A stretch of 64,000 nt of DNA from Nemophila menziesii (taxonomy: Eukaryota; Streptophyta; Magnoliopsida; Boraginales; Hydrophyllaceae). Below the pieces are notes generated by a model that had not been told where the DNA came from, made no database searches, and worked only from the letters and a program-made list of their open reading frames with translations. Positions 15,414-38,677 of the stretch are shown one piece after another (positions within the stretch are counted from its first letter, which is position 1; each line of letters begins with the position of its first letter). The position numbers and the translations under genes are program-made. Where the stretch lies: the NCBI GenBank assembly GCA_029959085.1, contig JARWIR010000018.1:15995001-16059000 (forward strand), written 5' to 3'.

Positions 15414-17186
15414 TTAAAAGTTTACATGTGTTAAAATCATATCAAGAAACTTAGGATGTTTATATATCATTTCATAAGTAGTTGCATCCACTGAAAAACC
15501 ATGTTTTCTCATTTCCTTAACCCATTCAATTGCTTCTTTATACTTTTTTTTCTTTAGAAACCCCCGGATAATAACATTGTAGGTCACACTATCCGGGGAG
15601 AAACCTTTTATCTTCATACTTGAAATCCACTCTTTTGCATCTTCAAACATTCCTTTGTGACAAAGTCCACCTATAATGGTATTATGGGTACATATATTAG
15701 GTTCCAAACCTTTGTATGATAGCTTGTTAAAAATGTCAATTGCAGCATCAACTTGTCTGTCTTTACATAATCCATGAATAATAGTAGTATACATGACAAT
15801 TGTAGGAGTTACATTGCTATTTTCCATGGAGTCTAATAAAGATATAGCCTCGGTAAGACTTGCATTGTTGCACAATCCATTTAACATTATTCCATAAGTA
15901 ACAAAGTCAGGATTTAATCCCTCACCCTCAGATTTCATCTTCATAAATAATTTCTGTGCAATGACACATCTACCCTTCTGAAACAACCCTTGTATTATAG
16001 TGCTGTATGTAACAGTATTAGGCTGCAGTCCCTTTGAAGGAATATCTTGAAAAAGTTGAAAAGCTTTATCAACCCAACCTTTCTTCACCAAACCATTGAG
16101 TAAACTGTTATATACTTGAATATCAGGATCACAACCTCTAGCTATCATGATACTTAATACCCCCTCAGCTTCCTCAATTTCACCCCTTAAGCAATACGCA
16201 TCTAGCAATGCAGTATATGTAATTACGTCGGGTTTCATGCCTCTTTCCATCATGATCTCTATGAATCTTTTGGCATCTTCGACTAATCCTTCCTTACCAT
16301 GTGAATCAACCAATATACTAAAAGTATGTACATCTGGAAGAATTTTATGTTCCAACATCTCAATCAACAATATCTTAGCCTCTTCCTTCCTCTCAAACTT
16401 ACACAATCCATGGATCAACGAAGAATAAGTGACAACATTTGGGTTTATACCCTTATCTTTCATCTCAGAAAATAGTTTAAAGGCATCATCTACCATGCTA
16501 TCCTTGCATAGACAATCAACAATGGTAGTATAAGATTGGATGCCAGGTTTAGAAATCTCCCTTTTTTCAAATACTCTTAGCAATTCAAGAGCCTTGAGAG
16601 TATGTCCAAGTTTACAAAGCCCATTTAGCACCACCCCAAAAGTAACTTCATCACACGCCTCACAAAGATTTTCCCTCATTAACCTATTAAACAACTCTAC
16701 AGCCTCATATCCTCTATCTTCACCAAAGAGGCCCTTTATCAGATCGGTATACGTAACCACAGTAGGAACATGTCCGCTTTTCAAGAAACAACCTAATACC
16801 GCAAAACCCAGATTGCTTTTTTTTAAAGAGCCGTAACAATTTATAGCTATATTCATCATATAGTCATCTATTGGAACACCTAACATGCGCATTTCTTTGA
16901 AAAGAGAAATAGCAGCAGAGTGTTGTTTCATCTTCTTTACAACGACGACTAATAGCTTAGTATAAACTTTAATTGAAGGCGTAGGTCGCATCTGGACCAT
17001 TCGATACAGTGCAAAACGAGCGTCTTCAACATTATTGATATCTTTTTCAAAATTATATGAATAAGAATACGATGAAAATGAATTATAACAGAATTGGGTA
17101 AAAGGGTTACCAATTTTGTTCAAGTAAGAACGAGACGATCTGTAGCAAATCAGATTCCATCCAATTAATGAACTACTCAGTTTCAT
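15414..17186 (-). CDS. RFL-type PPR protein B (intact)
   Basis: The 590-residue P-class pentatricopeptide repeat protein resembles the Restorer-of-fertility-like clade. Residues 1-45 are rich in Ser, Tyr, Arg and Asn with few acids, typical of a mitochondrial targeting peptide. About 14 motifs of 35 residues follow, plus a short final one (ATTYEMIYKHPKFL). Examples are VVTYTDLIKGL, VVTYSSLIHGL and TVTYSTIIQGL. Each motif binds one RNA base through residues 5 and 35. My reading of the pairs for motifs 1-14 is TD, NT, TD, GG, TN, SD, SD, TD, NN, SD, GT, TN, ND, ND. There is no E, DYW or SMR domain. RFL proteins typically process or silence mitochondrial transcripts, including those causing male sterility. 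The start is the first ATG, giving the shared MKLSSSLIGW start. The target is unknown. Confidence 0.92.
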   Translation of the reverse strand: MKLSSSLIGWNLICYRSSRSYLNKIGNPFTQFCYNSFSSYSYSYNFEKDINNVEDARFALYRMVQMRPTPSIKVYTKLLVVVVKKMKQHSAAISLFKEMRMLGVPIDDYMMNIAINCYGSLKKSNLGFAVLGCFLKSGHVPTVVTYTDLIKGLFGEDRGYEAVELFNRLMRENLCEACDEVTFGVVLNGLCKLGHTLKALELLRVFEKREISKPGIQSYTTIVDCLCKDSMVDDAFKLFSEMKDKGINPNVVTYSSLIHGLCKFERKEEAKILLIEMLEHKILPDVHTFSILVDSHGKEGLVEDAKRFIEIMMERGMKPDVITYTALLDAYCLRGEIEEAEGVLSIMIARGCDPDIQVYNSLLNGLVKKGWVDKAFQLFQDIPSKGLQPNTVTYSTIIQGLFQKGRCVIAQKLFMKMKSEGEGLNPDFVTYGIMLNGLCNNASLTEAISLLDSMENSNVTPTIVMYTTIIHGLCKDRQVDAAIDIFNKLSYKGLEPNICTHNTIIGGLCHKGMFEDAKEWISSMKIKGFSPDSVTYNVIIRGFLKKKKYKEAIEWVKEMRKHGFSVDATTYEMIYKHPKFLDMILTHVNF

Positions 17187-17389
17187 CTTCGATTCTTAAT
17201 TTTTCGGTTTCTTTTAATCTTTTGTGTTTTGAAATTAGGGTAGAGTGAAGTTGTTTGGGGGGTCTTTTCTTTTTCTTTTGGGTTGTTAGAAATTGAAATC
17301 AAGGGTACAGGCGGAAAATGATATTTGGTTAACATTTTTCATTTTCTCCTAAGTCACCCGAATTTTCCAGAATATTTTTTAGGAAAATT
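17187..17389 (-). promoter_or_regulatory. 5' leader and proximal upstream region of PPR gene B
   Basis: This region is conserved upstream of B, C, D and E (TTTTTCGGTTTC and GGGTAGAGTGAAG words), which suggests a retained 5' UTR or core promoter. I could not identify a clear TATA box. Conservation ends at the MITE. Confidence 0.4.
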
Positions 17390-17552: not shown

Positions 17553-17621
17553 TATTACCCTATTTTTTATATTGAAACAAATACGCAAGAAATAGCCAAA
17601 ATTCTATTTATGAAAAAAGAA

Positions 17622-17691
17622 AATTCTTTCATCCAATATTGAATGACATCAATTATATTAATATATATATCTCATGTTTTAAACTTGTAAA
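17622..17691. mobile_element. Partial second copy of the CCATCCAATATTGG MITE
   Basis: This piece aligns with the first 70 bases of the MITE at 17390, including TTTTAAACTTG, then ends exactly at the target duplication of the LINE inserted at 17692. The rest of the MITE is not found on the far side. Confidence 0.6.
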
Positions 17692-18679
17692 TGGAACCAG
17701 GCTCGAGAAGCGAACCTGCTGCAACAGTAAATGGAAGCAAAAATCTGCTGTCCAGCGAATTGGTTCTGAACTATCACCTTGCTATGATCTCAGCACTGAA
17801 TCCGAGTAGTGAAGGCCAACATTTAGTCAGTGATTCGCTTAACATTACTATGAAACAGTGGATTGAAACCAATCTATGCTCCAAGGAAATATATGGAGGA
17901 ATAGAGTGGAAGCTTGTGTTTATCGCAGCGGTGAATATTATTTGAACTAAACGAAATGAAGCAATATTTGAACATCCCAATACAGGCCCAAAATTGGTAG
18001 GACTTAAGCGCGATATATTGCGCTTGGCTAGTAGTTTCGTGTCCGCTTGGGGTAAGGAATGCGATGGAGGTATTATAAAGGCGGCGAGGAGCGAATTAGT
18101 TAAGTGGATGAAGCCAAAAAATAAGCTTAAACTCAATGTTGATGGGAGTTTTGACGCGAGGAGGAATCGAGCGGGTATTGGTGGATTAATAAGAGACGAG
18201 GAAGGTACGTTTGTAGTTGGTTTTTCCGGTCCGTGTATTATGGAATCTCCGGCCTTCTCTGAAACCTTAGCGCTGCATTTTGGCTTGAAATGGGCGGTAA
18301 ATCGGGGCATCACGGATCTTTTTGTCGAAACTGACTCAAGAAATCTTCACGCGCTAGTGAAGGGCGGTGGTAGTTTTACGAGTTTGGATTGTCAAATAGG
18401 ACGTGACTGTAGAGAGATCCTACGAAATCATCCGGGGTTCGAGATACAGTGTATTTACCGTGAAGCGAATACGTGTACGGATATGTTGGCTAAGAAGGGA
18501 GCAGATATAAATGAAGGACCTTGCACATTAGCGGATCCTCCGGATTATTTATGGCGGTACATCACTAATGATCGAAGTGGTTGCAGGATGCCTAGACTAG
18601 TATTAGACCCTCTGTGAGGGATTTAGTTGATTGTATTTAGTCAACTTCGGCTTTTATAGCCTCATATGTATGCAAAAAA
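17692..18679 (+). mobile_element. 5'-truncated LINE (L1-type) insertion
   Basis: It is flanked by an 11-base target duplication, AAACTTGTAAA (17681-17691 and 18680-18690, the last copy sharing an A with the tail). It ends in a short poly-A after a 3' UTR. Only the C-terminal part of ORF2 is present, which is the usual outcome of incomplete target-primed reverse transcription. Confidence 0.88.
17994..18617 (+). CDS. RNase H domain of a LINE ORF2 (C-terminal fragment)
   Basis: The fragment is about 200 residues and matches the plant RVT_3 RNase H-like domain. Visible motifs are LNVDGSF (first catalytic Asp), GGLIRDEEG, a Glu in FSETLALHFGLKWA, VETDSRN (second Asp) and REANTCTDMLAKKGA (final Asp). 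These residues cleave RNA in RNA-DNA hybrids during retrotransposition. The frame is open, but it is a remnant without endonuclease or reverse transcriptase. The in-frame GTG/ATG start is incidental, since the LINE is truncated; a stop near 17943 separates it from residual upstream coding sequence. Confidence 0.85.
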   Translation: MVGLKRDILRLASSFVSAWGKECDGGIIKAARSELVKWMKPKNKLKLNVDGSFDARRNRAGIGGLIRDEEGTFVVGFSGPCIMESPAFSETLALHFGLKWAVNRGITDLFVETDSRNLHALVKGGGSFTSLDCQIGRDCREILRNHPGFEIQCIYREANTCTDMLAKKGADINEGPCTLADPPDYLWRYITNDRSGCRMPRLVLDPL

Positions 18680-18690
18680 AAACTTGTAAA

Positions 18691-19200
18691 GGTTTTTTAT
18701 TTTTGGCAAAATCAAGAAAAGAATCACTACTCTCTCCATTTATTTTTATTTATTGTAAATTTTTTACCATAAAAAATAAAGAAAATATTAAATAATTTAT
18801 TTTTACCGTATTATTCTTATTCAATAAATGGTCATTTAGTGATTCTATTCATTTACAACCTTAGTCAAAGCAAAGGAGGAACTGATAACAAAGAACCCAA
18901 AATTCGTTAAGGTAGTCCGCGAATATCCCAAAAAATTGGACATAGCAAATTAACTTAGTAATGTTTAGTACTAAGTAAAATATGTGTCTGAAGACATTGA
19001 ACAAAATTTATTTTTATTTCGATCCCAATGATATGAATTAAAAGTATAAAACTAACCATAAAAAAACCAAAAAATCTATTATGAATTTTTTTTATAATAA
19101 AACTCATGTCTGGAAAAAGTACATGTCATAATATAGTGTTGGTAAAATACATTATTCATTCATAAGTTTAATAAAGATCCAATTAGAGGTAAATGCATAT
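18691..19200. repeat. Distal upstream flank of PPR gene B, duplicated at copy E
   Basis: This stretch aligns piecewise with 51143-51235, 52303-52440 and 58621-58850 upstream of copy E, where three insertions interrupt it. Shared words include GTCAAAGCAAAGGA, ATTCGTTAAGGT and CAACTTAGTAATGTTT. No gene is seen. Confidence 0.75.
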
Positions 19201-20138
19201 TAAAGAAGTTATTTAAAAAAAGGTGTCTCCAATAAAACATTTTAGAGAAAACAGCCTCTCCCGAAACTACCCCTAATTAACATAAAAAAAAACCAGCGTC
19301 TATATATCTTTTGTTTAAAAAAAACAAAAAACAAAACTCAAACGTCTAACACACAAACTGCACACACACACACACATAAACTGCACACAAACACACACAA
19401 CACCAACAAGCGAACGAAGACGAAAGGCGAACGAAGGACACTCACCGGCGACTCACGGCGGCTCAACGGCGACTAAACACCGGGGACTAAACATCGGCAA
19501 CGAAATCAACACACCTAAACCAAACGCGGTTAACACCAAAACAAAAAACAAACTAGTAAGTACTTCTAAAAACCTAAAACAGATGTTATTGTGTAATTTT
19601 TGAGTGAAATTTTTTATTCCGACTGTGTTAATGTGTGATTCACAAACAAAAACAAAACAAATATACAATGCATGTTGAATTCGAATGATTTTAGCCTGAC
19701 TAATGTTTGATTAGGATTTTAAGTGTTCATATATAGCGAATTTATTGGTTTCTAGGGTTTATAATACGATTTTTGGATGAATGTAATAGAATAATGTGAT
19801 TAATATAAACAGAAAATGAATTACAGTGATTAAACATGATTAAAATGTGAAACAGGGACCTATAGTGCAATTACTTTCAAAATATTTGAGGTATTAGTGT
19901 AAAATATACATAAAACAGGGTCTGAGACTAAATTATTGAGTAAATATTGTGAAGATTATAGACAAAATGTATAGTTTAGGGACCTTATAGTGTAAATACT
20001 GCATAATATGGAAATCTACACACTGTTTTTAGTAACTGTATTAAACATGGAATTCTATGTTTAATACAATTATAAAAACATGGAATTAACTCAATTTCAG
20101 AAATACTAATATATTTTCTTGTGCTTGTGTAAAAACAG
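19201..20138 (+). other. Region upstream of the DUF1985-like gene
   Basis: The region includes a CA-rich stretch (about 19345-19405, ACACACACACACAC) and two reverse-orientation copies of the ATAGGTCCCTA motif (19858 and 19981). A 5' UTR intron ending TGTGTAAAAACAG may lie just before the ATG at 20139. No other gene is seen. Confidence 0.35.
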
Positions 20139-22161
20139 ATGAAAATGGCACCAAGAAGAAACAGGAATAATGAAGAAGTAGATGAAGGAGAAGAAGGAGA
20201 AGAAGGGAGAAAAACAAGAACTTATAAAGAAACATACAAGTCAAATTTAACTTCACTTGTAAAGTTACTAAGTGAAGACAAATTTAAAGAACAACACATA
20301 GAATGGTGCAAGGAAACACCATTCTATGAATTACTAAATGGATTATACAAGTTAGTAAAAAGAAAAGATAAGTTTATACTTAGGAAAGGCGAAATAATAA
20401 CTCAAGAAATAATTAAATGCTACTCAAAACAGAAAAAGGGGTTCGTATTAGGAGAAAGTGTAATCAGACTAAAAAGAGAAGATGTAGCTGTTGTTATGGG
20501 AATTAAAGGTGGAGAGGAAGAATTCCCTACTATATGAAATGAAGAAGCCGGTGAATTAACGGATTGGCATGTCAAATACTTTGGAGAGAACAAAAGGGTG
20601 AAAACAACAGATATAAGAGAGTTGTTGAAGAATATGATTGAAGACATTCCAAATGTGGAGGGAGAAGGTGAAGAAGAAATGAAAGAAAGAAAAGAAAGAG
20701 TGGAGAAAGAAAGGAAGGAAGGCAGATTTCCCTTTGTTAATTACACTTTACATAATGGGGAATGTAATGTACTCAAATACAGGAAATGTAATCAAGAAAA
20801 GAGATATTAGGACAATCGAAATGATAAAAGACAAGATGACTGAATATGATTGGACAGGAAGACTTATAGAATTGCTAGAGGAATCCTTGGAAATCTATAG
20901 AAAGGCAAATCCAAAGAAAGTAATAGGATGCGTAACAGTTCTAGTGGTAAGAAACAACACTAATCTAAACATACCTATATATATATATATATAAGTTTAT
21001 AAACTGTACTAATATTATACTTTCTTATGTTGCACAGGCTTGGTTTTATGAATATACAGCTTTGGGAACAAAATTAAGGCCAAATGCTTGGCCAAGAATT
21101 CTGAGATGGAAGCTAGATGATAGAGACAGCAAGTATAAATCGGCAGTAATTGACAAACTCAGAAGAAAAGATGTAAACTAAAGATGAGATTTACATATAT
21201 ATAACTTAAACAGTTAATTAAAACTGTACATATCTTCCACAGGTTAGAAAGAAGATAGTCATAAGCGATGAGGAAAAAGAAAAACTTGGTTTAATAAAAG
21301 AGAATGAAGAAGAAGAAGAAGAAGAAGAAGAAGAAGAAGATGAAGATAGTGTCGTATCTCTGACACAAAGAGATTCAGAAGATGAGGAAGAGGAAGAGGA
21401 GAAGGAGGAGGAGGAAGAAGCCGAGGAAAAAGAAGAAGAAGAAAAAGGTAAAAAAATAGCGATAAAATGCATTAGGTTTCATACAGTATAAAACATGGAA
21501 TTCCATGTTTATAATAGTTAAATTTGGTCTTATAACTGTATAAGTATAACTAAATTTTTTTTTATTTGTTTTGATGGTTGCAGATGAAGAAGAAGAACAA
21601 GATACTACTATAAAAGATTTACATGAGGAATTAGATGGGGCTTACAAGCGACAACACATCATATAAAAGGAGAAATCCAAGCTGGAGAAACAATTAAAAG
21701 AAATAAACGAAAAAGAGAATAAGAAAATAAATAAGCTGGAAGAAACAAATAAAAAACTGAAAGATCGAGTAAACGAACTGGAGACGGAGAACACAGAGCT
21801 TCAGGTGCAACTAGTAGAAAAAGAGTCAATAATCAAAAAGCTCGAGGAAGAAAAGGAGGTGGACCACTATGTAGAGCGCGCAGTCGGCTATGGAATGTAC
21901 ATGGACACGTCGCCAGAGAAAAACAGAGGACAGGACAGGGAAGGAGGATTAGAAACAGAGAAAGAAAACGAGCCAACGGTGAATATGGAAACCGACAAAG
22001 AAAACGAGCCGGAGGTGACTATCGAACCCGGGACTGAGGTGAAAAAGGAAGCCAATAGTGAGGTAAATATGGAGACTGAGGTGGTAGTGCAAAAGGAGCA
22101 GGAAAGTGCGTTGCTTAAACACACACAAATAACAATTGTGTGTTGCAGGAACACAGAATAA
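20139..22161 (+). pseudogene. Broken multi-exon gene: DUF1985-like domain plus coiled coil
   Basis: Exons can be traced by frame continuity and GT-AG sites: about 20139-20946, 21038-21172, 21243-21447 and 21584-22161. The N-terminal part contains CKETPFYELLNGLY, VIRLKREDVAVVMGIKGGEE, and later LPRILRW-like AWPRILRWKLDD. That order resembles the DUF1985 / plant mobile domain proteins that often accompany Ulp1-like proteases in transposons. A Glu-rich tract and a long Lys/Glu/Leu coiled coil follow (about 21670-21860), then an acidic tail of repeated METDKENEP-like units. It is disabled by an in-frame TGA (20535-20537), a frameshift near 20725 and an in-frame TAA (21664-21666). No Ulp1 catalytic region was found. 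The family call is tentative; the exon structure is stronger. Confidence 0.5.
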
Positions 22162-22304
22162 GATATACAGAATATTTGTACACAGTAATAGATAATAGTG
22201 TACAGATAGTCTGAACATCTGATTGTGTGTTAATGTAACACACAATTGCTTGATGTGTGAGTTACAGTAACACAAAACAGTATGGACTTGTGTGTTAATG
22301 AAAA

Positions 22305-23580: not shown

Positions 23581-23794
23581 TGATAAAATAGAGAGGAGAA
23601 AGAATAGAGAGAATAGAGAGAAGAGTTTGTTATTGATTAATTGCTTATGTTTACAATCTATTGATCACATATATATACAAGTATTTGATTCTATAGAAGA
23701 TGCTAACAACTTCTTGTTACAAGTTGTTAGTTATATGAGCTGTCATTTCTCTTTCCAGCTGTATTACTTGATTGCTAAGTCTTGTATCTTATCA
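23581..23794 (-). repeat. 3' LTR of Copia 1
   Basis: 214 bases from TGATAAAATAG to CTTATCA on the plus strand. The pol stop codon lies just inside this LTR, so the last ten or so codons of pol are LTR-encoded. Confidence 0.95.
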
Positions 23795-26700
23795 TCCCCC
23801 CTCAAGCTAAGCATGTTTAGCATGGGAAGCTTGTGAAGTAAAGAAGTAAAGATAGAAACTCCAAGACCTTTAGTCAGAATGTCAGCAATTTGATCTGGAG
23901 AGGAAACATGATGCAAGTGAAGAAGCTTGGATTTAACTTGTTCTCGAACAAAATGAAAGTCTACATCTATGTGTCTTGTTCGTGTATGAAACACAGGATT
24001 AGTTACTAAAGCTAGAGCAGACAAGTTATCACACGCAAGAGTGGGAGTGACAACATCTATGTGAAGACTTTTAAGTAAGAAAGTAAACCATTTTATCTCA
24101 GCTGATACATGAGCTAAAGCTCTGTATTCTGCTTCAGTTGATGATCTCGAGACCGTTGTTTGTCGTTTTGATCCCCAAGAAACCAGATTCTTGCCTAAGA
24201 AAATGCAATATCCAGTTGTGGAGCGCCTATCTAAGGCATTGCTGGCCCAATCTGAATCTGAAAAAGCATGAAGAGTTGAAGTAGAAGGTGTGAAATGAAG
24301 ACTATAGTGAATAGTTCCTTTAATGTATCTTAGTAGTTTCTTTAAGGCTTCATAATCTCCATTGGTAGGTTTATGCATAGACTGACATATTTGATTCACA
24401 GAAAAGGCAATGTCAGGTCTTGTAATAGTAAGATATTGTAATGCTCCAGTTAAACTTCGAAATAAAAATGGATCTTCAAATAATTGTGTGTTGTAATTTG
24501 TAGAAACCATATATTTGCTTAGGGTAGGAGTAGTTGATGCTTTACATTCACTTAGACCTGCCCTCTTTAGAATTGTCAAAGCATAATTAGCTTGAGATAC
24601 AACTAAGCCTTCACCATGAGAAGTAATCTCAAGCCCAAGGAAATAAGATAATATGCCCAAATCTTTCATTTGAAATCTTCTCTTTAAGGCTTGAATGATC
24701 ACTAGAATGGAGTCACTATTTGCTCCAGTTACTAAGATATCATCAACATATACGAGGATGATGGTTAGAGTAGAAGAAGAGCCCTTAACAAACATGGAAG
24801 AGTCTGCTGAGCTAGAAATAAAACCATGATCAATTAGAAAAGAATAAAGTAGAGAATACCAAGCTCTTGGTGCTTGTTTGAGACCATATAATGATCTATT
24901 TAATTTGCATACATATGATGGTTGTTCAGCGCTAATAAACCCCGAAGGTTGAGCCATATATACCTCCTCATCAATTTGACCATGTAGAAACGCATTAGAG
25001 ACATCAAGTTGCCTGATTTCCCACTTGTTTGAAACAGCTAAGGCAAGAATTATACGAATGGTTTGATGTTTAACCACGGGACTAAAGGTTTCAGTATAGT
25101 CTAATCCATATTCTTGGAGAAATCCACGAGCAACAAGCCTAGCTTTATACCTAGCAATAGAGCCATTCGCATTTCTTTTAATTTTGTATATCCATTTACA
25201 AGTAATTGGTGTTCTACCAATTGGAGCTGGGACAAGAGTCCAAGTGTTTTGACTAATCAAAGCATCATATTCTTCCTTCATTGCATCCAACCAATGTTGA
25301 GATTGAAATGCTTCTTTGAAAGATACAGGTTCAACAAGTGGGGGAGTTTGAGTGAGCATTTGACATTTGTAAGATGGTTTAAGAGAACCTGTTTGTCTCC
25401 TTGTGATCATGTGGTGTTTGGGAGGTTGAGGTGGGGCTGGAGGTTGAGTTATTAAACTTGAAGATGGTTGAGTAGAAGACATAGAAGAGTTAGTTTCTTG
25501 AGATGAATTATCAGTAGTTGAAGGAGAACTATGATTTGGTAAGGGATCAAATGGATGTGAAAGTGATGAAAGATTTATAGAGGGAAAAAGATCCACAAAA
25601 CTTGATGTGTTTGGAACTATATTAGAAGAGATGGTTATATTTGAAGCAAAAGGAAAGGTTGTCTCATCAAACCTCACATGTCTTGAGATATATAGTTTTG
25701 ATGAGCTAAGAGATTGACATTTATAGCCTTTAGAATAAGAGCAATAGCCCAAGAACACACACCTTTCAGAGGTAGGTGTAAACTTGTGTGTGTTATATGG
25801 CTTAATCCATGGATAGCATAAACACCCAAGAACCCGTAGATGATTATAAGTAGGCTTAATCTGAAACAAAATTTCATAAGGACAAAGGTTATTCAGTGAA
25901 GGACTTGGTAGAATATTTATCAAATACACAGCTGTAGAGAGAGCTTCACACCAATACTTCATAGGGAGAGAAGCATGAGTTAGCATAGATAGTGTAGTCT
26001 CTATTAAGTGCATGTGTTTGCGCTCAGAAACTCCATTTTGTTCAGGAGTGTGAGGGCAAGAAGTTTGATGAATTATCCCTAATGATTGAAGATAAAGTTT
26101 GAATGCATTGCTTGTGTACTCTCCTCCATTGTCAGATCTTAAACACTTGATAGTAGTTTGAAATTGGTTTTGAATAAGTGTAGAAAATGACTTAAACACT
26201 TCATATACTTCTGATTTATATCTCAATGGATAAACCCAGCTGAACCTGCTATAATCATCTACAAATAGCACATAATATGTAAAAGAAGAGCAAGAAGCTG
26301 TATGAGCTGGTCCCCAAACATCAGTATGAATAATATCAAAAGGTTTCAGTGACTTAGATGCAGATAAAGTAAAAGGTAGTTTATGTGCTTTGGATATAGC
26401 ACAAGAGTTACATTTAATTCCAAAATGATCTAGTCTAGTATTTAAAGTACAAGATAATGGAACTAAAGCTTGTGAAGATGGATGTCCTAGCCGTAAATGC
26501 CACAACACAGCTGAAGATGAGGTCACTTTTGAAGACAAACACTTCAGGGACTTATTTATGCAATTATGAGCTTTTATAGGAGATGTAATTTCTCCTGATG
26601 TTAAAGGATATAACCCATCCTTACAAGGGCCCTGAAATAGCAGTTTGTGTGAGATAGCATCATAAATTGAGACTGAACTTGAAGAGAAAGTAATCACACA

Positions 26701-27333: not shown

Positions 27334-27991
27334 TTGATTCAGACATTTTCATATGGAGTTCTTCAGATACAAGTAAACTTCCAAGTGAGTGAAAGCTAAG
27401 TGTTGAGGATTGAGCATTGGTAATTCTTATACTTGACTTGAATTGATTATATTCAGCAGGTAATCCTTTGAGTGTATACATAATCACATCTTCAAGTGGT
27501 AACGAAGCAGCAGCTGTGTCTAAGCCATCACAAATATCTTGTATGCTAGTTAAATACTCAGTCATTGTTTTCTCCCCTTTCTTAAGATTACATAGCTTCA
27601 TTTTTAGTTGATGAACATGTGTTCTACACTGATTTACGAACAATTCTTCAAGTTTTACCCAAACATCATGAGCAGTTTGAGATCTAACTACCTGTGAGAA
27701 GACTGAAGGTATCATCGAGGATAGAAGTGAGACCTTCAGTTGATGATCTTCAATTAGCCACGTCGAATATGAAGAATCAGCTGATGAAGGTGGAGAAGTT
27801 GATTTAGCGACATGATTTAAGTAGCCATGAGCCTCTAACACAGCTTCGAGTTGAGCTTTCCACAGCACATAATTTGTAGAATCAAGCTTAATTTGGACGA
27901 GAGATGACCAATTTTGGCGAAGTAAGAGTAATCCAGCTGGTATTTCTGCGCTGGATGAAATGTGTGGTGTTGATGTTGAAGAAGAGGTCAT
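27140..27991 (-). CDS. Copia 1 Gag
   Basis: The 283-residue protein starts from the first true ATG (27991); the frame is open a few codons further upstream but without ATG. It has the Copia gag fold region (UBN2-like) with YVLWKAQLEAVL near residue 42, HDVWVKLEELF near 108 and a TLKGLPAEYNQFKSSI block. An Arg/Gly-rich RNA-binding tail follows (GRGRGPSNRGRGYANRGRG). The frame ends at 27140, before the zinc knuckle, which lies in the pol frame one base off. Gag assembles the virus-like particle and packages RNA. Confidence 0.88.
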   Translation of the reverse strand: MTSSSTSTPHISSSAEIPAGLLLLRQNWSSLVQIKLDSTNYVLWKAQLEAVLEAHGYLNHVAKSTSPPSSADSSYSTWLIEDHQLKVSLLSSMIPSVFSQVVRSQTAHDVWVKLEELFVNQCRTHVHQLKMKLCNLKKGEKTMTEYLTSIQDICDGLDTAAASLPLEDVIMYTLKGLPAEYNQFKSSIRITNAQSSTLSFHSLGSLLVSEELHMKMSESIDNSHQHTALFSSSNQNSATNVGRGRGPSNRGRGYANRGRGRQFSNQNSSILGAPSSQTLWYEL

Positions 27992-28145
27992 GTTTGTATT
28001 AAGCAAGACAGCAGAGAAGATAAAAACAGAGAATAGAGACGATTTGAGAAATGCGGAAGAAAAGATCGATGTTTAGTTCGAAGAATAGCAAAGCTTCATG
28101 AGTTGCGCCATTAATGGCGATGAAGAAGCTTGTTTCTTCATAATA

Positions 28146-29296: not shown

Positions 29297-30934
29297 CCCC
29301 GTGAAGTGAAGTCCAGCCCCGTGATGCCTTTATTACTGTCTGATTTAGTAATTCATTGTTGTATGGTATTTTAGTAATTCAGTGTTGTTTGAATTGAAGT
29401 ATTGAAAAAGGATTTTTTTTTGTCATTGTTTAACTAAATCAAAACACCAAGTTGTTCATTGCAATTCATTGTTAAAACACAGCTTCTGCAGATATTTTTG
29501 GAGTTTTTTTGTGTACATGATCTTGTACTATGTGTGTTGATGGGCCAGGTAGTTGAATCATGTGTTCTTGGGTTGGTGTTGAAGGGGCCAGGAGATTAAC
29601 AATGTTAGCTGTTTTTGTTTGGTTATATACAATATAGGTGCAACCCCATCGAGTTAATAAGCGAGATGGGTCTGTACCAGTATGGGAGTTGAGTTACTAT
29701 AATAGGCAAGTTAAAAACTGTTGCGAAAAACGTCGCGGGTCCATCCCCATCACGAGGAGGGGTAAAATAGACAAGAACCTAAACAGAAAGTTAGGAATTG
29801 GATGTAATTAAGATTTTTTCAGTTTGGATGTATTTTATTAATATTTGGGAATTGAGGCTGGAAAAAGTAATTCCTCTTCTTAAATATCCCTCGTTAAATC
29901 TTCACGTTATTTTTAAAAAAAAATTCGTTAAATCTCCTCGTTATTCTTTAAATTTCTCTTTATATTTTAAACCTATCCTTATATTTTTGTTTCTGTATTC
30001 ACTGATGCCATCTATTGTTAAGATGCATATTTAATATAAGATCGACCTTATTATGATTCCTTGTGTATTATTGATTGGTCCTTTGGGTGGATAGTATTTA
30101 GGATTAGTAAAAAAAAGCTATGCGCTTTCTCTATGTGCCAATACTATGTGTATTTTCACCTTCACTGTGTGAACATTTTTGTTAAAATTAGCTTTGTGAA
30201 TGTTTCTTGGACGATGATTATTGTTTCCATGGTTCATCTACACCTTTACTTTCAGATATCTGCTAACATAGCTAATAAGACTAATATCATAATATTAAAG
30301 AAATTAAAAAAGAAATGGACAAAATGACACAATAAAAAACTAGATGAAATGCTATTTAACTTTTGTTATATGTTGTGTTCCAAGCAACATTCAATCTAAA
30401 CAAGATGAGGTAATCACGAACCTATTGTATTTAGAGAAAGTTAAAAATAAAGATTGCACAAATTCAAGTGACAACCATTTCAAGACATTAATAGCAATAA
30501 AATATTCAGGAAAAAATGGACATTAATACAAACATCATCAGCTGAGGCCTGTTGTATAAATCATTAGCCTCGCCCTCCATTATAGGATAACCAGCCATAA
30601 GTGAATTTTGTGCTCCTATATACAACTAATTGTATATGTTCTTGTAGACACACTATGTAGACATTATTCACTAAAACTGAGAGCAACACTAAATTTCATT
30701 TTTCACTGCTTGCTTACTCGTTTTGATACCAGATAACATTTGCTACAAAAATAATAATTAAAAGTTCAACATTTGTAAACTAATATCCCTCAATACAAAT
30801 ACTAAAACTTGCATTAAAACATAAAATAAACAACATAACTAATTCAATTAATCCTGATTTGAAACCTGAAAATCTTTTACTGAATAAGGGTGACTACAGA
30901 TTGGTACAGAGCCATGAAGAGACTGTAAATTTAA
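29297..30934. repeat. Segmental duplication, copy 2 (3' flank of PPR gene C)
   Basis: The partner of 6580-8518. It lacks the LTR-element insertion and so shows the empty site (CCAGCCCCGTGAAG) near 29297. A segment at about 30330-30540 is not present in copy 1. Confidence 0.8.
29638..29811 (+). other. Exon-like 57-codon segment, copy 2
   Basis: This copy has the same splice-acceptor-like CAATATAG and the same 57-codon translation as 6983-7156; the only change I see is the stop, TAA instead of TAG. Function unknown. Confidence 0.3.
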
Positions 30935-32707
30935 TTAAAAGTTTACATGTGTTAAAATCATATCAAGAAACTTAGGATGTTTATATATGATTTCATAAGT
31001 AGTTGCATCCACTGAGAAACCATGTTTTCTCATTTCCTTAACCCATTCAATTGCCTCTTCATACTTTTGTTTCTTCATAAACCCTTGAATAATAACATTG
31101 TAGGTCACACTATTTGGGGAGAAACCTTTTTTCTTCATACTTGAAATCCACTCTTTTGCATATTCAAACATTCCTTTGTGACAAAGTCCACCAATCATAA
31201 TAGTATATGTACGTATATCAGGCTCCAAACCTTTGGATGATAACTTGTAAAAAATGTCTAATGCAGCATCAAGCTGTCTATCTTTACATAATCCATGAAT
31301 AATAGTATTATACATCACAATGTTAGGAGTTACATTGCTATTTTCCATGGAGTCTAATAAAGATATTGCGTCGGTAAGACGTCCATTATTACACAATCCG
31401 TTTAACATTATTCCATATGTCACAAAGTCAGGAGGACTTAATCCCTCACCCTCAGATTTCATCTTCATAAATAATTCCTGCGCAATGACACATAAACCCT
31501 TGTGAAACAACCCTTGTATCGTAGTGCTGTATGTAACAGTATCAGGTTGCAGTCTCTTGGATTGAATATCTTGAAAAAGTTGAAAAGCCTTATCAACCCA
31601 ACCTTTCTTCACCAAACCATTGATTAAACTGTTATATACTTGAATATCAGGATCACAACCTCTAGCTATCATGATAGCTAATACCCCCACAGCTTCTTCC
31701 ATTTCTCCTCGTAAACAATGTGCATCTATTAATGCATTATAAGTAACAACATTTGGTTTTAGACCTCTTTCAATCATGACTTCTACAAATTCTTGTGCTT
31801 CTCCCACTAATCCTTCCTTACCATGTGAATCAACGAATATACTAAAAGTATGTACATCTGGAAGAATTTTATGTTCCAACATCTCAATCAACAACATCTT
31901 AGCCTCTTCCTTCCTCTCAAACTTACACAATCCATGGATCAACGAATTATAAGTCACAACAGTTGGATAGATGCCCTTATCTTTCATCTCAGAAAATAGT
32001 TTAAAGGCATCATCTACCATGCTATCCTTGCATAGACAATCAACAATGGTAGTATAAGATTGGATGCCAGGTTTAGAAATCTCCCTTTTTTCAAATACTC
32101 TTAGCAATTCAAGAGCCTTGAGAGTATGTCCAAGTTTACAAAGCCCATTTAGCACCACCCCAAAAGTAACCTCACTCGGCTCACAAAGATTTTCCCTCAT
32201 TAACCTATTAAACAACTCTACAGCCTCATATCCTCTATCTTCACCAAAGAGGCCCTTTATCAGGGTGTTATACGTAACCACGTTAGGAACATGACCACAT
32301 TTGAAGAGACAACCTAATACCGCAAAACCCAGATTGCTTTTTTTTAAAGAGCCATAACAATTTATAGCTATATTCATCATATAGTCATCTATTGGAACAC
32401 CTAACATGCGCATTTCTTTGAAAAGAGAAATAGCAGCGGAGTGTTGTTTCATCTTCTTTACAACGACGACTAATAGCTTATTATAAACTTTAATTGAAGG
32501 CGTAGGTCGCATCTGGATCATTCGATACAGTGCAAAACGAGCGTCTTCAACATTATTGATATCTTTTTCAAAATTATATGAATAAGAATACGATGAAAAT
32601 GAATTATAACAGAATTGGGTAAAAGGGTTACAAATTATGTTGAAGTAAGAACGAGACGATCTATAGCAAATCAGATTCCATCCAATTAATGAACTACTCA
32701 GTTTCAT
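30935..32707 (-). CDS. RFL-type PPR protein C (intact)
   Basis: The 590-residue protein starts from ATG at 32707, which gives the same MKLSSSLIGW start as copy B; two further upstream codons are open but have no ATG. It has the same architecture as B, with a basic Ser/Tyr-rich presumed mitochondrial presequence, about 14 PPR motifs, and the shared C-terminus ILTHVNF. Residue 5/35 pairs as I read them for motifs 1-14 are ND, NN, NS, GG, TT, ND, SN, ND, ND, SD, GN, ND, TN, ND. Most differ from B. One motif has an extra residue (LSPPD), as in copy A. The protein is predicted to bind a different mitochondrial RNA sequence from B. The Arabidopsis and rice RFL clade is the closest known relative by motif style. 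Confidence 0.92.
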   Translation of the reverse strand: MKLSSSLIGWNLICYRSSRSYFNIICNPFTQFCYNSFSSYSYSYNFEKDINNVEDARFALYRMIQMRPTPSIKVYNKLLVVVVKKMKQHSAAISLFKEMRMLGVPIDDYMMNIAINCYGSLKKSNLGFAVLGCLFKCGHVPNVVTYNTLIKGLFGEDRGYEAVELFNRLMRENLCEPSEVTFGVVLNGLCKLGHTLKALELLRVFEKREISKPGIQSYTTIVDCLCKDSMVDDAFKLFSEMKDKGIYPTVVTYNSLIHGLCKFERKEEAKMLLIEMLEHKILPDVHTFSIFVDSHGKEGLVGEAQEFVEVMIERGLKPNVVTYNALIDAHCLRGEMEEAVGVLAIMIARGCDPDIQVYNSLINGLVKKGWVDKAFQLFQDIQSKRLQPDTVTYSTTIQGLFHKGLCVIAQELFMKMKSEGEGLSPPDFVTYGIMLNGLCNNGRLTDAISLLDSMENSNVTPNIVMYNTIIHGLCKDRQLDAALDIFYKLSSKGLEPDIRTYTIMIGGLCHKGMFEYAKEWISSMKKKGFSPNSVTYNVIIQGFMKKQKYEEAIEWVKEMRKHGFSVDATTYEIIYKHPKFLDMILTHVNF

Positions 32708-33369
32708 CTTCAATTCTTAATTTTTCAGTTTCTTTTAATCTTTTGTGTTTTGAAATTAGGGTAGAGTGAAGTTGTTTGGGGTGTCTTTTCTTTTTCTTTT
32801 GGGGTGTTAGAAATTGGAATCAAGGGTTTCCTAAATGGATCCGGGTTTTCCACACTATATAAAAAATAATAATTAGGAAATAACCAAAATTCTATTTATA
32901 GGAAAATGTATTAAAAATTAAATTAAATTTTTTGGCAAAACCAAAAAGAAAATCTCTACTTTCTCCATCAACTTTTATTTGTTCTAAATTTTTTACGATA
33001 AGAATTAAAAAAAAAAACATTAAATAAATCTTTTTTACGGTATTAATCTTATTCAATAAGTATAAGGCCGAGGTTCGCTCGTTTATAAACAAGTTTAAGT
33101 TAAGTCAACAAACATTGCTTGGAGATACCTTAGTTATGAAATTCTCTCTTCCCTCTCTCCTCACCAACATTACAAATCTTTAAACACAAAATCTTAAAAC
33201 ACAAAATTTTCTTTCCTCTACACCCTAACATCACTCAAAATCTCTAAATTTTGGGTGATTCCTTACTTGATCTAGTGTTTTTTTTTTAACCACATCTTCA
33301 TTAACACTACATCTTCAGCTTCCTTTTCCTTTTTTCCCTCGCTTTCCCATCCATCTGCATCTTCTTGCT
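32708..33369. other. Upstream region of PPR gene C
   Basis: The first 350 or so bases match the upstream regions of B and E (TTTTGGCAAAACC and CTCCATC words, then TACGGTATTAATCTTATTCAATAAG). A pyrimidine-rich stretch from about 33140 precedes the small ORF at 33370. Confidence 0.45.
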
Positions 33370-33567
33370 ATGGATTTCTACGCTCCTTCTCATCCTCTAG
33401 CAAACAATGAGGCTTTGATCATTACACCTGATAACAACTCAAAGTACAAACAAGCCAGGAATTTAAACTTGTGGTTAAACTATTATCAACAGAAAAAGTT
33501 AACAACTAAGGTCAAAGAGAAGACCCAACCAACCTTACGTGACCCCCGACATTTCCTACGAGTATAG
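33370..33567 (+). CDS. Small ORF, unknown
   Basis: The 65-codon ORF starts with ATG after a 200-base CT-rich leader resembling a plant 5' UTR. The translation is hydrophilic (ANNEALIITPDNNSKYKQA is part of it) and has no recognised domain or targeting signal. It could be a first exon, a gene fragment or chance. Only the leader and start context argue for it. Confidence 0.2.
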   Translation: MDFYAPSHPLANNEALIITPDNNSKYKQARNLNLWLNYYQQKKLTTKVKEKTQPTLRDPRHFLRV

Positions 33568-34152
33568 GACCAGATAATTAATAGATTATTAACTATTAAA
33601 TACTTTGAACCTTACATATTATTAGGTGTAATAGTTCATGGGCATTAACCTAAGAATCTTAAATTCCTAAATTGGATTCTAGCGACCATTCAGTTACCAG
33701 TATTAAGTTTTTTTAAAATATAGTATTAGCAACCAATAATATGGCAGCTAACTGTTGGTACCTTTCTATCAACCATACTCGCTCACCAAAAGGTTTAAAT
33801 AATTTATTTACCTTTTAACATTTCTGACGACTATTATGACCGCCAAAATTCCTTTCTCTAGTGCCATTGACGATCGCCAGAGATGTGGTCACTAAAAACA
33901 GTACCTAAGATAGTGATTTTGATTCATCATTATATTTCAAATACATAAACTTGGATAAATTATTTGTTGAAAAAACAATTTAATATTTATATTAAGAAAA
34001 ATGTGTTTCAGTTTCTTTTAAGTGAAAGAGAAAAGTTTGAAAAGGAATATAATAGTTTTATAATGCTACTTAACAAATTTTCACCAAAAACTCATGGTAG
34101 TCTATTTTCTTAACTTTGACACATAAGTTATTATATCAAAATAGAGTAATAA
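33568..34152. other. Intergenic, nothing identified
   Basis: AT-rich DNA without gene, repeat or element termini that I can support. Confidence 0.4.
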
Positions 34153-34326
34153 TATATACCACCCAAAATCATACCACCTCAATACCACACAATGACGTGG
34201 CATGAATTGGTTGGTTACAAATCTCTAATCTATTTATTTTCTTGATCTAATTAAAGATTTGTAACCAACCAATTCACGCCACGTCATTAGGTGGTATTTG
34301 GGTGGTATGATTTTGGGGGGTATATA
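34153..34326. mobile_element. Fold-back MITE
   Basis: The 174-base element is a long inverted repeat. The left arm starts TATATACCACCCAAAATC, and the right arm is its near-perfect complement (GATTTTGGGGGGTATATA). The arms continue through GACGTGGC and TTGGTTGGTTACAAATCT to a short AT-rich loop. The RNA would form a long hairpin. The TA-rich edges hide the target duplication. Confidence 0.85.
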
Positions 34327-34331
34327 TAATT

Positions 34332-34425
34332 ACTCATTAAAATAAACCAAAACCACACTCAGAAATATGTATAGGAGTACTCATTAAAATATACCAAAAC
34401 CACACTCAGAAATATGTATAGGAGT
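34332..34425. repeat. Two-copy 47-base tandem duplication
   Basis: Two adjacent 47-base units (34332-34378 and 34379-34425) differ at one base (AAATAAACC versus AAATATACC). The duplication abuts the fold-back MITE. Confidence 0.9.
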
Positions 34426-36919
34426 ACGTAAGAATTTTCCAAGGGGTTATGGTATTGGGTATATTACCAAAAGCTGTGAGTTGTGTGAGTAGGTCGAAAA
34501 CCGACCCAACCTAACTACCAATCTAATCCAACTCTTTATTTATTTTTACCCGAGTTAGCGTTCTTGGATCTATACAATCTTAATTTAACTCTAACCTTAA
34601 AAAATCAATTCTCATCATTAATTTAAATGCTCTAATCCAATTCAACTTTCATCACCTTTGAAGGACAACCCTTGTGTTATCACCGACACAAGTAAACCAG
34701 TTGTGCATCTACACTCACGATATACCACTTCACAAACCTGTAAAGTGTTCCATTTTGTATCATCACACACGTACGAGTATACATTTTATACTCACGGTCT
34801 ACTACTTCACACACCCGCAAACATTCAACTTGTGTCTACATCTACACAGGCTCTAAATCACCCTTCTCTAGTCTATATGAACACACTTCTTATTAAATAA
34901 AAATAATCCCTAGAATTTACGATTGAGCCCAATTTACATATCATCAATACTTCTGTATGAGTAAATGTTACAAATATGGGCTAAATATAAATCAATATAG
35001 ATGTTTGGACTATGAATTGCTTTGGGTCTCTTTGAAAGTATGTTTTTGAAAGTTTCAAATTCGAAGTAAAAAACACCATTTTTCAGAGTCTTGAGAGCCT
35101 CTATTTATAGTCAAAATCTCCCCAACGGATCTAATCATGTGTAAGATACACATTGGATGAATTTCCTCCAGTCAGTTTTTTAAACTTCTCTTGGCCAAGT
35201 GGTCGACTCAATTGTGAGCGCTGATCTTCTAACGATTTTTAACATTCGTACATATGAATCATTTACCCTCATTTTAGTCGTTATATGTTGATCCTCAGGT
35301 ACTCACATTCCTTTATCTTAGGGTACTCACTGGATTCAAGTACTCTAATATGATGATTAATAGACTGGGTACCCGACAATTTACTCGAAGGTCCGGTCTT
35401 CAATGATCTTGACTCTCTATCGGGAAATCTTTGGCAATCCGGTTCTTCTCTTGATCATAGGTTTGACGTCTTTGACTTTGATCTCTTTCAACGGTTGTTT
35501 TTGTGGTAGTCAAATACTTATGAGATCGAAGGTCCGATGACTCTGCTTCCTTGGATCCTTCTTCAAATGCTCTTAGGCAGTCTGATATGTGGCTACTTTG
35601 GAGGTCCTGTGTTTTCTTTCCACAAGTTTACAGATTGATATAAGTAATAAAGTTATAAAAGACCGTCTTTCAAGAGACTAGAAAAGTTAGGTCATGTTTT
35701 AGCTAGGTTTTGATAAATCACAATAAGGAATTGAAAAAAAAGGAGTCGGTGATCAATTTAAGATACTATGAAAGTAAAGGACTAAAATACAAACAAATTC
35801 CAAAAAAACAAGGATTATAGTGCAATATCAAATGATTCAAATGGAGAAAAATACGCTCGGGGTGATCGATTCCACCAAAGGACTTTAAATGGGCAACTTA
35901 TATTCAATAAGAGAATATATTAATAATTAAATAGTACCACGGATCTAAGGTTCACCGTAAACCCCTTATGTATGATTAGAGGTTACTCTCAAGGCAAAGA
36001 GACTTCTTCCGAATGAACTTAAGTGACCTAAAAAGTGTTTAAATTATCTACCCATAACGAGACTATGCATCTATGTATGATATTCCGATTATATAGGATA
36101 AATACACTCGCAATTATCTAGTTCTACCCTTAAACGCACGTTCTAGGTGTAATTCAATGATTTCTATCGATCAACTATGTGGGCAATAAAATCAATCAAC
36201 AACTCAATACTAAGTTAAAAAAAAATAAAGCATGAATATTTAATTTTTAATTAATCATTAAGCCTCAAATTTAATATACAATCCCTAATTAACAAGACAT
36301 AGAAGTTCATTCTCCTCCCAAGATACAATAGATACAATCGATTTAGCTCATGATAAATGTAAAAATAACCATGTTTAATAAACATATAAGGATAAGAAAA
36401 TCAAAGTAAAAAGGGAAGTTACAATTTTTATAATGAAAAGATGATAAAGATTTGAAGATGGCTTGAAGATATAAAGATCCTATATATTTCCTCTGAACTT
36501 TTTCTTCCTAACTTGTGTGTTGCGTTTCTACAATGAATTATATGAAAGTATGTTGCTCCATGTGTGAAACTCTCTCTAACAAAACAAGTTTAAAAGTTTT
36601 ACGCTACAAAAATTTGGATAATCAAGGCAAATTAATATATCATATCGAGACATTGAGACATTTAATTCAAGTTTTTATTTGCCTCATAGACTATTTAAGA
36701 AAGAAACCAATAGAAATGTATCACATGTAATTACAGTTAATAAATCAAACCGAACCATTTAGGCAAGAATTCATAACACTCAAATCGTGGTATATATCAT
36801 TACTTTTACAGAAAGTACACAAAGGAACACATTTTTTTCATGCAAATTCTTTTTTATTTTTCTGTCGAATCAAGGTGACTACAAGAAGAAGATGCAGAGA
36901 CTGTTAATTGTTAAAAGTT
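34426..36919. other. Intergenic, possible decayed LTR sequence
   Basis: No gene is supported. 35030-35120 has a minus-strand TATA-like site (CTATAAATAG), and 35850-36450 has words recalling LTR-type DNA (GATTATCTAG-like). I found no matching ends or primer site. Short frames at 34658-34900 and 36515-36730 have no domain. The last 100 or so bases are the 3' flank of PPR gene D and differ from the flanks of A-C. Confidence 0.3.
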
Positions 36920-38677
36920 TTACATCTGTCGAATCATATAAAGTAGCTTAGGATGTTCATATATGATTCTATAAGTAGTTGCATCCACTGCGAAACCATG
37001 TTTTCTCATTTCCTTCACCCATTCAATTGCTTCTTCATACTTTTCTTTCTTCATAAACCCTTGAATAATAACATTGTAGGTCACACTATTTGGGGAGAAA
37101 CCTTTTTTCTTCATACTTGAAATCCACTCTTTTGCATCTTTAAACCGTCCTTCTCGACAAAGTCCACCTATTATGGTATTATGGGTATATATATTAGGCT
37201 GCAAACCTTTGGAGGATAACTTGTAAAAAATGACTAATGCAGCATCAAGCTGTCTATCATTACATAATCCATTAATAATAGTTGTATATATCACAATGTC
37301 AGGAGTTACATTGCTATTTTCCATGGAGTCTAATAAAGATATAGCCTCGGTAACACGTCCATTATTACACAATCCGTTTAACATTATTCCATAGGTAACA
37401 AAGTCAGGACTTACTCCCTCGGCCTCAAATTGCATCTTGTTGAATAAATCCTGCGCAATGACACATAAACCCTTCTGAAACAACCCTTGTATCATAGTGG
37501 TGTATGTAACAGTATCAGGTTGCAGTCTCTTTGAAGGAATATCTTGAAAAAGTTGAAAAGCCTTATCAACCCAACCTTTCTTCACCAAACCATTGATTAA
37601 AGTGTTATATATTTGAATAGTAGGATCACAACCTCTAGCTACCATGATAGCTAATAACCCCACAGCTTCCTCCATTTCTCCTCGTAAACAATGTGCATCT
37701 ATTAATGCATTATAAGTAACAACATTCGGTTTTAGACCTCTTTCAGTCATGATTTCTACAAATTTTTGCGCTTCTTCCACTAATCCTTCCTTACCATGTG
37801 AATCAACCAATATATTGAATGTATGTACATCTGGAAGAATTTTATGTTCCAACATCTCAATCAACAACATCTTAGCCTCTTCCTTCCTCTCAAACTTACA
37901 CAATCCATGGATCAACGAATTATAAGTCACAACAGTTGGATATATGCCCTTATCTTTCATCTCAGAAAATAATTTAACAGCATTATCAACCATGCGATCC
38001 TTGCATAGACAATCAACAATGGTGTTATAAGATTGGATGCCAGGTTTAGAAATCTCCCTTTTTTCAAATACTCTTAGCAATTCGAGAGCCTTGAGTGTAT
38101 GTCCAAGTTTACAAAGCCCATTTAGCACCACCCCAAAAGTAACCTCACTCGGCTCGCAAAGTTTGTCCCTCCTTAACTTATTAAACAACTCTATAGCCTC
38201 ATCTCCTCTATCTTCACTAAAAAGACCCTTCATCAGGGTGTTATAAGTAACCACGTTAGGAACATGACCACATTTGAAGAGACAACCTAATACCGCAAAA
38301 CCCAAATTGCTTTTTTTTAAAGAGCCATAACAATTTATAGATATATTTATCATATAGTCATTTATTGGAACACCTAACATGCGCATTTCTTTGAAAAGAG
38401 AAATAGCAGCTGAGTGTTGTTTCATCTTTACAACGAGGATTAATAGCTTATTATAAACTTTAATTGAAGGCGTAGGTCGCATTTGGACCATTCGATACAG
38501 TGCAAAACGAGCGTCTTCAACATTATTGATATCTTTTTCGAAATCATATGAATAAGAAGACGATGAAAATGAATTATAACAGAATTGGGTAAAAGGGTTA
38601 CCAATTTTGTTCAAGTAAGAACGAGACGATCTATAGCAAATCAGATTCCACCCAATTAATGAACTACTCAGTTTCAT
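36920..38677 (-). CDS. RFL-type PPR protein D (intact)
   Basis: 585 residues from ATG at 38677. The presequence and PPR layout match B and C, but one Lys is missing in the first motif (VVKMKQHS), and the C-terminus differs, ending YEHPKLLYMIRQM instead of ILTHVNF. Residue 5/35 pairs as I read them for motifs 1-14 are NN, NN, NS, GG, NT, ND, NN, NT, ND, TD, GD, TN, NN, ND. It is the most diverged intact copy and its 3' flank is unrelated to the others. Predicted to be a mitochondrial RNA-binding protein of the Restorer-of-fertility-like clade. No stop or frameshift seen. Confidence 0.92.
   Translation of the reverse strand: MKLSSSLIGWNLICYRSSRSYLNKIGNPFTQFCYNSFSSSSYSYDFEKDINNVEDARFALYRMVQMRPTPSIKVYNKLLILVVKMKQHSAAISLFKEMRMLGVPINDYMINISINCYGSLKKSNLGFAVLGCLFKCGHVPNVVTYNTLMKGLFSEDRGDEAIELFNKLRRDKLCEPSEVTFGVVLNGLCKLGHTLKALELLRVFEKREISKPGIQSYNTIVDCLCKDRMVDNAVKLFSEMKDKGIYPTVVTYNSLIHGLCKFERKEEAKMLLIEMLEHKILPDVHTFNILVDSHGKEGLVEEAQKFVEIMTERGLKPNVVTYNALIDAHCLRGEMEEAVGLLAIMVARGCDPTIQIYNTLINGLVKKGWVDKAFQLFQDIPSKRLQPDTVTYTTMIQGLFQKGLCVIAQDLFNKMQFEAEGVSPDFVTYGIMLNGLCNNGRVTEAISLLDSMENSNVTPDIVIYTTIINGLCNDRQLDAALVIFYKLSSKGLQPNIYTHNTIIGGLCREGRFKDAKEWISSMKKKGFSPNSVTYNVIIQGFMKKEKYEEAIEWVKEMRKHGFAVDATTYRIIYEHPKLLYMIRQM

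Follow-up and report, generated by a model that had tools for sequence, protein, structure and literature searches.

Three intact RFL-type genes in the window

The DNA studied here, hereafter the window, is a stretch of 64,000 nucleotides from Nemophila menziesii (positions 15,995,001-16,059,000 of contig JARWIR010000018.1, which we call C89). It contains three genes, B, C and D, for pentatricopeptide repeat (PPR) proteins of the Restorer of fertility-like (RFL) type. An initial annotation, made from the letters alone, had described all three as intact close paralogs, and each open reading frame (ORF) is indeed uninterrupted (Table 1). It had also singled out residues 5 and 35 of each motif, the pair that chooses the RNA base in PPR proteins, as the place where the paralogs differ. 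Our subject is these code residues and the larger family to which the three genes belong.

The proteins are 83-89% identical to one another. Pfam PPR domains span all three, alongside weaker matches to tetratricopeptide repeat (TPR)-like and other solenoid models. No DYW or E model is among these Pfam matches. All motifs are of the P class, and PLS motifs as well as E and DYW domains are absent. Motifs are 35-38 residues long and, in each protein, the full ones are accompanied by partial ones at both ends. A count of 14 full motifs satisfies the screening rule for RFL genes, at least 10 motifs, and lies just below the 15 to 20 called typical in the passages of PMC5075784 that state the rule. 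The N-terminal 44 residues of B, C and D, inspected with mitochondrial import in mind, include no acidic residues, 3-4 basic residues and 12-13 serines or threonines.

To place the proteins, we built a tree of 34 proteins, using 31 of 120 listed matches. B, C and D group with asterid proteins that databases name after At1g12700, At1g62670 and At1g62914, and apart from proteins resembling At1g06710 and At1g74580. Support for this grouping, which holds 22 of the 34 rows, was 99 in the Shimodaira-Hasegawa-like approximate likelihood ratio test. The labels are database names, and cloned Rf proteins are not among the rows.

Motif numbering was checked against solved structures. D aligns in matching register with designer PPR proteins, best with dPPR-U10 (5i9f). 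We take repeat I of 5i9f to read VVTYN...KPD, with residue 5 presumably the one that follows the tyrosine and residue 35 the last. The register used in the initial annotation is the same. Read in this way, the 5/35 pair differs among B, C and D in 12 of 14 motifs, the number originally given, and all seven triplets quoted at the time are reproduced. Motif 4 had been called constant, with the pair GG. This holds for B, C and D but not for the family; among 39 other relatives, motif 4 is GD or GN in 26, GG in 11 and AD in 2.

Diversifying selection at the code residues

Variation among B, C and D is concentrated at the code. Position 5 is variable in 9 of 14 motifs and position 35 in 10 of 14, together 19 of 28 columns. 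By comparison, 82 of 466 other motif columns vary, as do 14 of 91 columns outside the motifs. The enrichment at positions 5 and 35 has an odds ratio of 9.9 (Fisher p = 2.5e-8), and positions 35 and 5 are the top two in variability among all motif positions.

We then estimated the ratio of replacement to silent substitution rates (omega, or dN/dS), using a codon likelihood of the MG94 type written for this analysis. For B, C and D, where only one tree is possible, code sites had an omega of 1.69 and all other sites one of 0.37, a difference with p = 6e-8. The same contrast was found with 12 genes (1.68 and 0.39, p = 1e-25; p = 5e-5 for the code sites against 1). It was also found with 41 genes from the same genome, B, C and D included (1.69 and 0.385, p = 1e-13 against 1). 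L065, a relative of 555 amino acids, was left out of the 41-gene fits.

Residues found at the code positions are drawn from a small alphabet. In the 41 genes, 1131 of 1148 are N, D, T, S or G. When replacements at code sites were divided accordingly, omega for B, C and D was 5.3 inside this alphabet and about 0 outside (p = 3.5e-8 against 1; note that this fit stopped at its iteration limit). The corresponding values were 4.8 and 0.025 for 12 genes, and 4.6 and 0.086 for 41 genes. In a site model blind to the code, fitted to the 12 genes (M1a/M2a p = 9e-7), position 5 also has the highest mean posterior and position 35 the next highest.

The excess is seen in the first two bases of the codon. 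Third-base differences are alike at code and other codons (0.119 and 0.122 for B, C and D; 0.144 and 0.129 for 41 genes). Differences in the first two bases amount to 0.46-0.47 at code codons, and 0.11-0.13 elsewhere, in both sets. A mutational hot spot at the code codons is ruled out by the equal third bases.

We conclude that variation at the code residues reflects diversifying selection, as already published for RFL genes. The initial annotation had made the same proposal, on condition of a higher dN/dS at residues 5 and 35. That expectation has been borne out, and it stands up to the stricter tests with the residue alphabet, matched sites (see below) and third bases.

A large family that exchanges sequence

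To find relatives, we searched the 1.5-Gb assembly (361 contigs) with D and scored 75 of 2390 candidates. At least 54 loci, B, C and D among them, are near-full-length, which we define as a match to D from residue 11 or earlier to residue 582 or later with an identity of at least 78%. These loci are on 23 contigs, and are 78-100% identical to D; 52 have no internal stop. At least 15 are within 15.97-19.17 Mb of C89, the window contig, with further copies on 22 other contigs. Because 75 of 2390 candidates were scored, all family counts are lower bounds. Haplotype copies may be present among the contigs; for example, 3 polymorphic sites separate L046 from L048, which are on two contigs. In all, 42 genes were read (B, C and D among them), and pairs of genes differ in code at a median of 10 of 14 motifs. 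Another dense PPR group, with at least 11 matches, was seen at 24.8-25.4 Mb of contig C200; its open frames, of 225-525 amino acids, are shorter than B, C and D.

Family members have recombined. In the pairwise homoplasy index test, none of 1000 permutations reached the observed value (216 sites; L017 left out). A test for shared tracts, which leaves out two pairs with fewer than 20 differences, identified 18 of 818 pairs as significant after Bonferroni correction. The test singled out 14 of the 90 pairs within C89 and 4 of the 681 between contigs, but none of the 47 within contigs other than C89. Within C89, tracts may be shared over long distances; for example, C forms a significant pair with L044, 2 Mb away.

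DNA next to the genes has a different history from the genes. In four of six pairs inspected, gene bodies are more diverged than the flanks that they share. For B and L011, the upstream flank has 0.5-4% substitutions (1.0% in the first 200 bp) and the body up to 15%. For D and L019, the upstream values are 0-3% (2.5-3.2% in the first 400 bp), again with up to 15% in the body. B and L019 share the downstream side, at 0-3% (2.1% adjoining the gene), have bodies that differ by up to 15% and have no common upstream side. For C and L018, upstream divergence is 0-2% beyond 400 bp and body divergence is 11-13%; adjoining the gene it is 4.7%, followed by an unalike stretch. The remaining two pairs do not show this pattern. 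The bodies of L017 and L011 are nearly identical, and B and C have little flank in common.

L019 (C89:18007001-18017000) is a broken relative that combines the upstream flank of D with the downstream flank of B. It is probably a recombinant locus, of the kind that unequal crossing over would give. Some shared flanks are probably mobile elements, yet the stretches adjoining the genes are similar too. The boundaries of the segment upstream of C suggest an inserted element. We conclude that the three genes make up a small fraction of a large and partly dispersed family, shaped by recombination and point change, that is invisible from the window alone.

Table 1. Features of the window, with code strings giving residues 5 and 35 for motifs 1 to 14
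Feature	Position	Strand	Description
Gene B	15414..17186	-	Intact P-class PPR gene (RFL-type), 590 aa, 14 full motifs; code TD NT TD GG TN SD SD TD NN SD GT TN ND ND
Gene C	30935..32707	-	Intact P-class PPR gene, 590 aa, 14 full motifs; code ND NN NS GG TT ND SN ND ND SD GN ND TN ND
Gene D	36920..38677	-	Intact P-class PPR gene, 585 aa, 14 full motifs; code NN NN NS GG NT ND NN NT ND TD GD TN NN ND
Remnant A	8309..9356	-	3' half of a relative, matching D nt 934-1758 and downstream flank; repeat replaces 5' end; one internal stop
Remnant E	42664..43335	-	5' part of a relative, matching D nt 1-544 and upstream flank; frameshifted, without 3' end
Downstream flank of B	13591..15059		97% identical to flank of paralog L019
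Upstream flank of B	17561..22109		About 95-96% identical to flank of paralog L011 (18 kb left of the window), in part to L017
Segment upstream of C	33069..36731		3.7 kb, 98.5% identical upstream of paralog L018
Upstream flank of D	38740..40839		97-98.6% identical to flank of paralog L019 (2 Mb away)
Element upstream of D	38988-40733		Inverted ends of about 290 bp (88%); also at L019
Repeat downstream of A	6737-7677		0.94 kb, 97.9% identical to repeat downstream of C
Repeat downstream of C	29389-30332		0.94 kb, 97.9% identical to repeat downstream of A
Copia-like ORFs	23764-28072		Mobile-DNA-like
Copia-like ORFs	53645-57726		Mobile-DNA-like
LINE-like stretch	46854-51063		Mobile-DNA-like

The cluster from B to D is bordered by the broken relatives A and E; the latter is 95% identical to paralog L017. 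Much of the remaining window resembles mobile DNA. Besides copia-like ORFs and a stretch resembling a long interspersed nuclear element (LINE), there are gag-like and RNase-H-like pieces. Note that these names were assigned by reading ORF sequences rather than by family search. The similar repeats downstream of A and C are perhaps a young mobile element.

Other RFL clusters offer comparisons. That on barley chromosome 1H is alike in its clustered P-class PPR genes, an omega reaching 1 and selection centred on the code residues. The barley genome contains 26 full-length RFL genes, of which 8 to 12 are in one 2-Mb sub-cluster (all from the relevant passages of PMC7380019). Here, unlike in barley, one recent subfamily alone accounts for the loci counted above, at least 15 of them within 3.2 Mb of C89. 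The Rf-1 cluster on rice chromosome 10 is alike in tandem duplication, unequal crossing over, proposed gene conversion and change at residues 5 and 35. Rice RFL genes form a monophyletic RFL clade, with up to 18 genes of at least 10 motifs per genome, and recombination is already on record as a source of RFL diversity (same passages of PMC5075784 as above). Unlike what those passages describe, a few tracts here are also common between contigs.

Interpretation, a chimeric cox1 frame and candidate targets

Our reading is that a single nuclear P-class PPR gene of the RFL clade gave rise to B, C and D by recent duplication. Purifying selection maintains the solenoid scaffold, while residues 5 and 35 are driven to change within the PPR-code alphabet. 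New code strings would arise by point change at these codons, and by recombination of code blocks, mainly within the 3-Mb cluster. As the residues change within the alphabet, we propose that each copy comes to read another RNA. That B, C and D each bind a different RNA, as the initial annotation held, is likely and follows from the published PPR code. By analogy with the family, the proteins would enter mitochondria and bind single-stranded RNA, one base per motif. Once bound, they would most probably cause mitochondrial transcripts, those of new chimeric ORFs among them, to be silenced or cleaved endonucleolytically; they may recruit a nuclease or block translation. We give the whole reading, recent duplication with a conserved scaffold, driven code residues and recombination, a probability of about 0.87.

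Several points weigh against this reading. For B, C and D alone, omega above 1 is borderline when the alphabet argument is set aside (p = 0.043), and pairwise code dN/dS is 1.37, 0.93 and 1.40 (in that count, the register of motif 1 was shifted by one residue). Pairwise counting over 12 genes gives 0.73 at the code and 0.34 elsewhere, and so is not clearly above 1. We trust pairwise values less, because 28 codons offer few silent sites, codons may change in multiple steps and third bases are not clearly raised. In addition, recombination violates the single tree assumed in the 12- and 41-gene fits, and the PPR code as well as the data were known when the alphabet was picked. In the code-blind model, only one of ten single sites with a posterior above 0.9 is a code site.

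The pairwise values near or below 1, and the borderline test, are what relaxed constraint would produce, with code residues merely tolerating change and no positive selection. We consider this very improbable. Change is not tolerated generally, since omega at code sites is 0.09 for replacements that leave the alphabet. Furthermore, non-code columns with matching majority residues have an omega of 0.36 inside the alphabet, compared with 4.6 at code sites. The strong mosaicism described above raises another prospect: code blocks imported from distant copies might alone mimic selection. Imported tracts would also bring silent changes and other replacements, but there is no third-base excess and no peak at other motif positions. 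Hence, recombination without selection is, in our judgement, just as improbable. An error of register or alignment is effectively ruled out. The peak of variability falls at exactly two motif positions, the dPPR proteins share the register and the code-blind model points to the same positions.

We turned to the mitochondrial side by searching the genome for cox1. Full-length copies are on contigs C165 and C172. On C172, C133, C243, C268 and C290, a copy matches the first half only (L035, L037, L039; P0124). As read on C172, C133 and C290, cox1 is cut after about 250 residues and continues in-frame into a tail with GGEPEPAGP repeats. The resulting chimeric ORF, P0124, has 444-479 codons between stops. 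Its cox1 part is identical to the intact gene at 764 of 766 nucleotides, and the DNA of its tail is 100% identical on all five contigs (C243 and C268 by tail match, the other three as read). No relative of the tail was found among 7996 proteins scored, and only one other copy of it is in the genome, on the 27-Mb contig C100. The chimera has two 5' contexts: the native cox1 leader on C133 and C290, and another leader on C172. From their cox1 content and size, we infer that the contigs with the chimera are mitochondrial (the three read are 17.5, 64 and 132.5 kb long).

By its sequence, this ORF, a mitochondrial gene fused in-frame to a novel stretch, is of the type linked to male sterility. Chimeric cox1 sterility ORFs are reportedly known from a study of Silene vulgaris and from a study of rice orfH79, the latter gene being linked to cox1. 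They resemble P0124 in that the beginning of a respiratory gene runs into a novel tail, in mitochondrial DNA. Unlike those chimeras, the one here consists of about 250 cox1 residues and a tail without a database relative, and a role in sterility is only putative. Gynodioecy occurs in Nemophila and Phacelia.

The C100 copy (L038, C100:684299-685489) is a copy of the chimera on a nuclear contig, still open and with a shorter repeat. There are five base differences within 13 nucleotides at the fusion joint, and none in the 838 nucleotides before. After the joint, there is no difference until about 300 nucleotides, apart from the repeat gap, and then eight substitutions in the next 360 nucleotides.

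We scanned for RNA sites predicted by the code. Note that the scan used uncalibrated PPR code weights and ignored RNA editing. The 42 genes yield 40 distinct code strings, of which 39 were scanned; L017, which has the L011 code except at one motif, and two duplicate strings were left out. The initial annotation had suggested a search for predicted binding sites in the mitochondrial genome, above all in chimeric ORFs. In the one chimera examined, taken as 3 kb, none of the three has a credible predicted site (motif-order permutation p of 0.42, 0.57 and 0.13). D gave p = 0.025 on the 3' part of cox1, which is not significant among 39 code strings.

A different family member gave a better fit. 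L011 (C89:15975384-15977138) is 18 kb left of the window; its near-copy L017, about 1.9 Mb away, has 7 codon differences from it, 6 of them replacements, all in roughly the last fifth. The predicted L011 site lies exactly over the fusion joint of the chimera, where it matches 13 of 14 bases (TGATAGACACCCTT). The fit scores 14.5 at the mitochondrial joint, compared with 7.1 at the same place in the nuclear copy. Per-site P is 5.5e-7 with the full code and 9.0e-7 with canonical pairs only. Multiplied by 1403 positions and 39 strings, this becomes a marginal family-wise p of about 0.03 or 0.05. The hit has the lowest chance probability among the 60 best-fitting hits evaluated, from about 40 kb of mitochondrial sequence, counted over both strands and with some overlap. 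Over all scanned letters (40206 x 39), about 0.9 equally good hits would be expected by chance with the full code, or 1.4 with canonical pairs. Since only a prior focus on the chimeric ORF gives p of about 0.03-0.05, the L011 site is a lead and not a result.

Across 28 segments, p of 0.01 or less was attained by 2 of 39 strings on the chimeric ORF and by 0 or 1 on every other one. The two strings are those of L011 and of L044, another C89 copy with a weaker predicted site in the tail of the chimera. The segments include antisense, cox1, 12 other mitochondrial and 10 nuclear sequences; the chimera-specific part, which overlaps the ORF, had 1. At p of 0.05 or less, the chimeric ORF has 2 of 39 strings, no excess over controls with 0 to 5.

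What might such proteins do? Rather than suppress sterility genes, B, C and D may, like the RPF genes of Arabidopsis, process the ends of ordinary mitochondrial transcripts. RPF2 is an RFL protein tied to 5'-end processing, and has a GG motif as in B, C and D. For the most part, RFL proteins appear to have no link with sterility, and several of them direct how conserved transcripts are processed. Sequence exchange has also been suggested among similar Arabidopsis RFL genes in the chromosome 1 cluster. In contrast with B, C and D, RPF2 has known targets, cox3 and nad9 (these points from portions of PMC10487680 and PMC5138203). Such a role agrees with the scan, where B, C and D lack a credible site in the chimeric ORF. 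Conserved targets alone, however, do not explain an omega above 1 at the code residues or more than 50 copies. We regard this option as a real contender, at somewhat less than even odds.

The initial annotation had named the cluster a candidate for fertility restoration or mitochondrial transcript processing, and its interpretation, taken as a whole, is partly supported. Divergence at code residues is known to mark arms races of the nucleus with mitochondria. In its boldest form, the idea would be that a sterility-restorer arms race is live in this plant, with P0124 the sterility factor, L011 its restorer and B, C and D other entries in a recombining library of RNA readers. We think that unlikely. 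As an example of a known phenomenon the finding is strong, and what raises it further is the sterility-type ORF in the same assembly. Together with the chimera, the family offers a concrete and testable pair for matching silencing nuclear genes to mitochondrial sterility factors, in a plant that lacks crop genetics. Independently of sterility, more than 50 recent near-copies, with one scaffold and changes chiefly at the reading residues, are a clean and large natural data set on how RNA-reading proteins gain targets.

We also observed arrays of plastid-derived DNA in nuclear contigs. One nuclear matK copy has its best hit in Ellisia nyctelea (Hydrophyllaceae, Boraginales), at 90% identity. Both C174 and C351 (at 13.8-16.1 Mb) contain many matK fragments within a few Mb.

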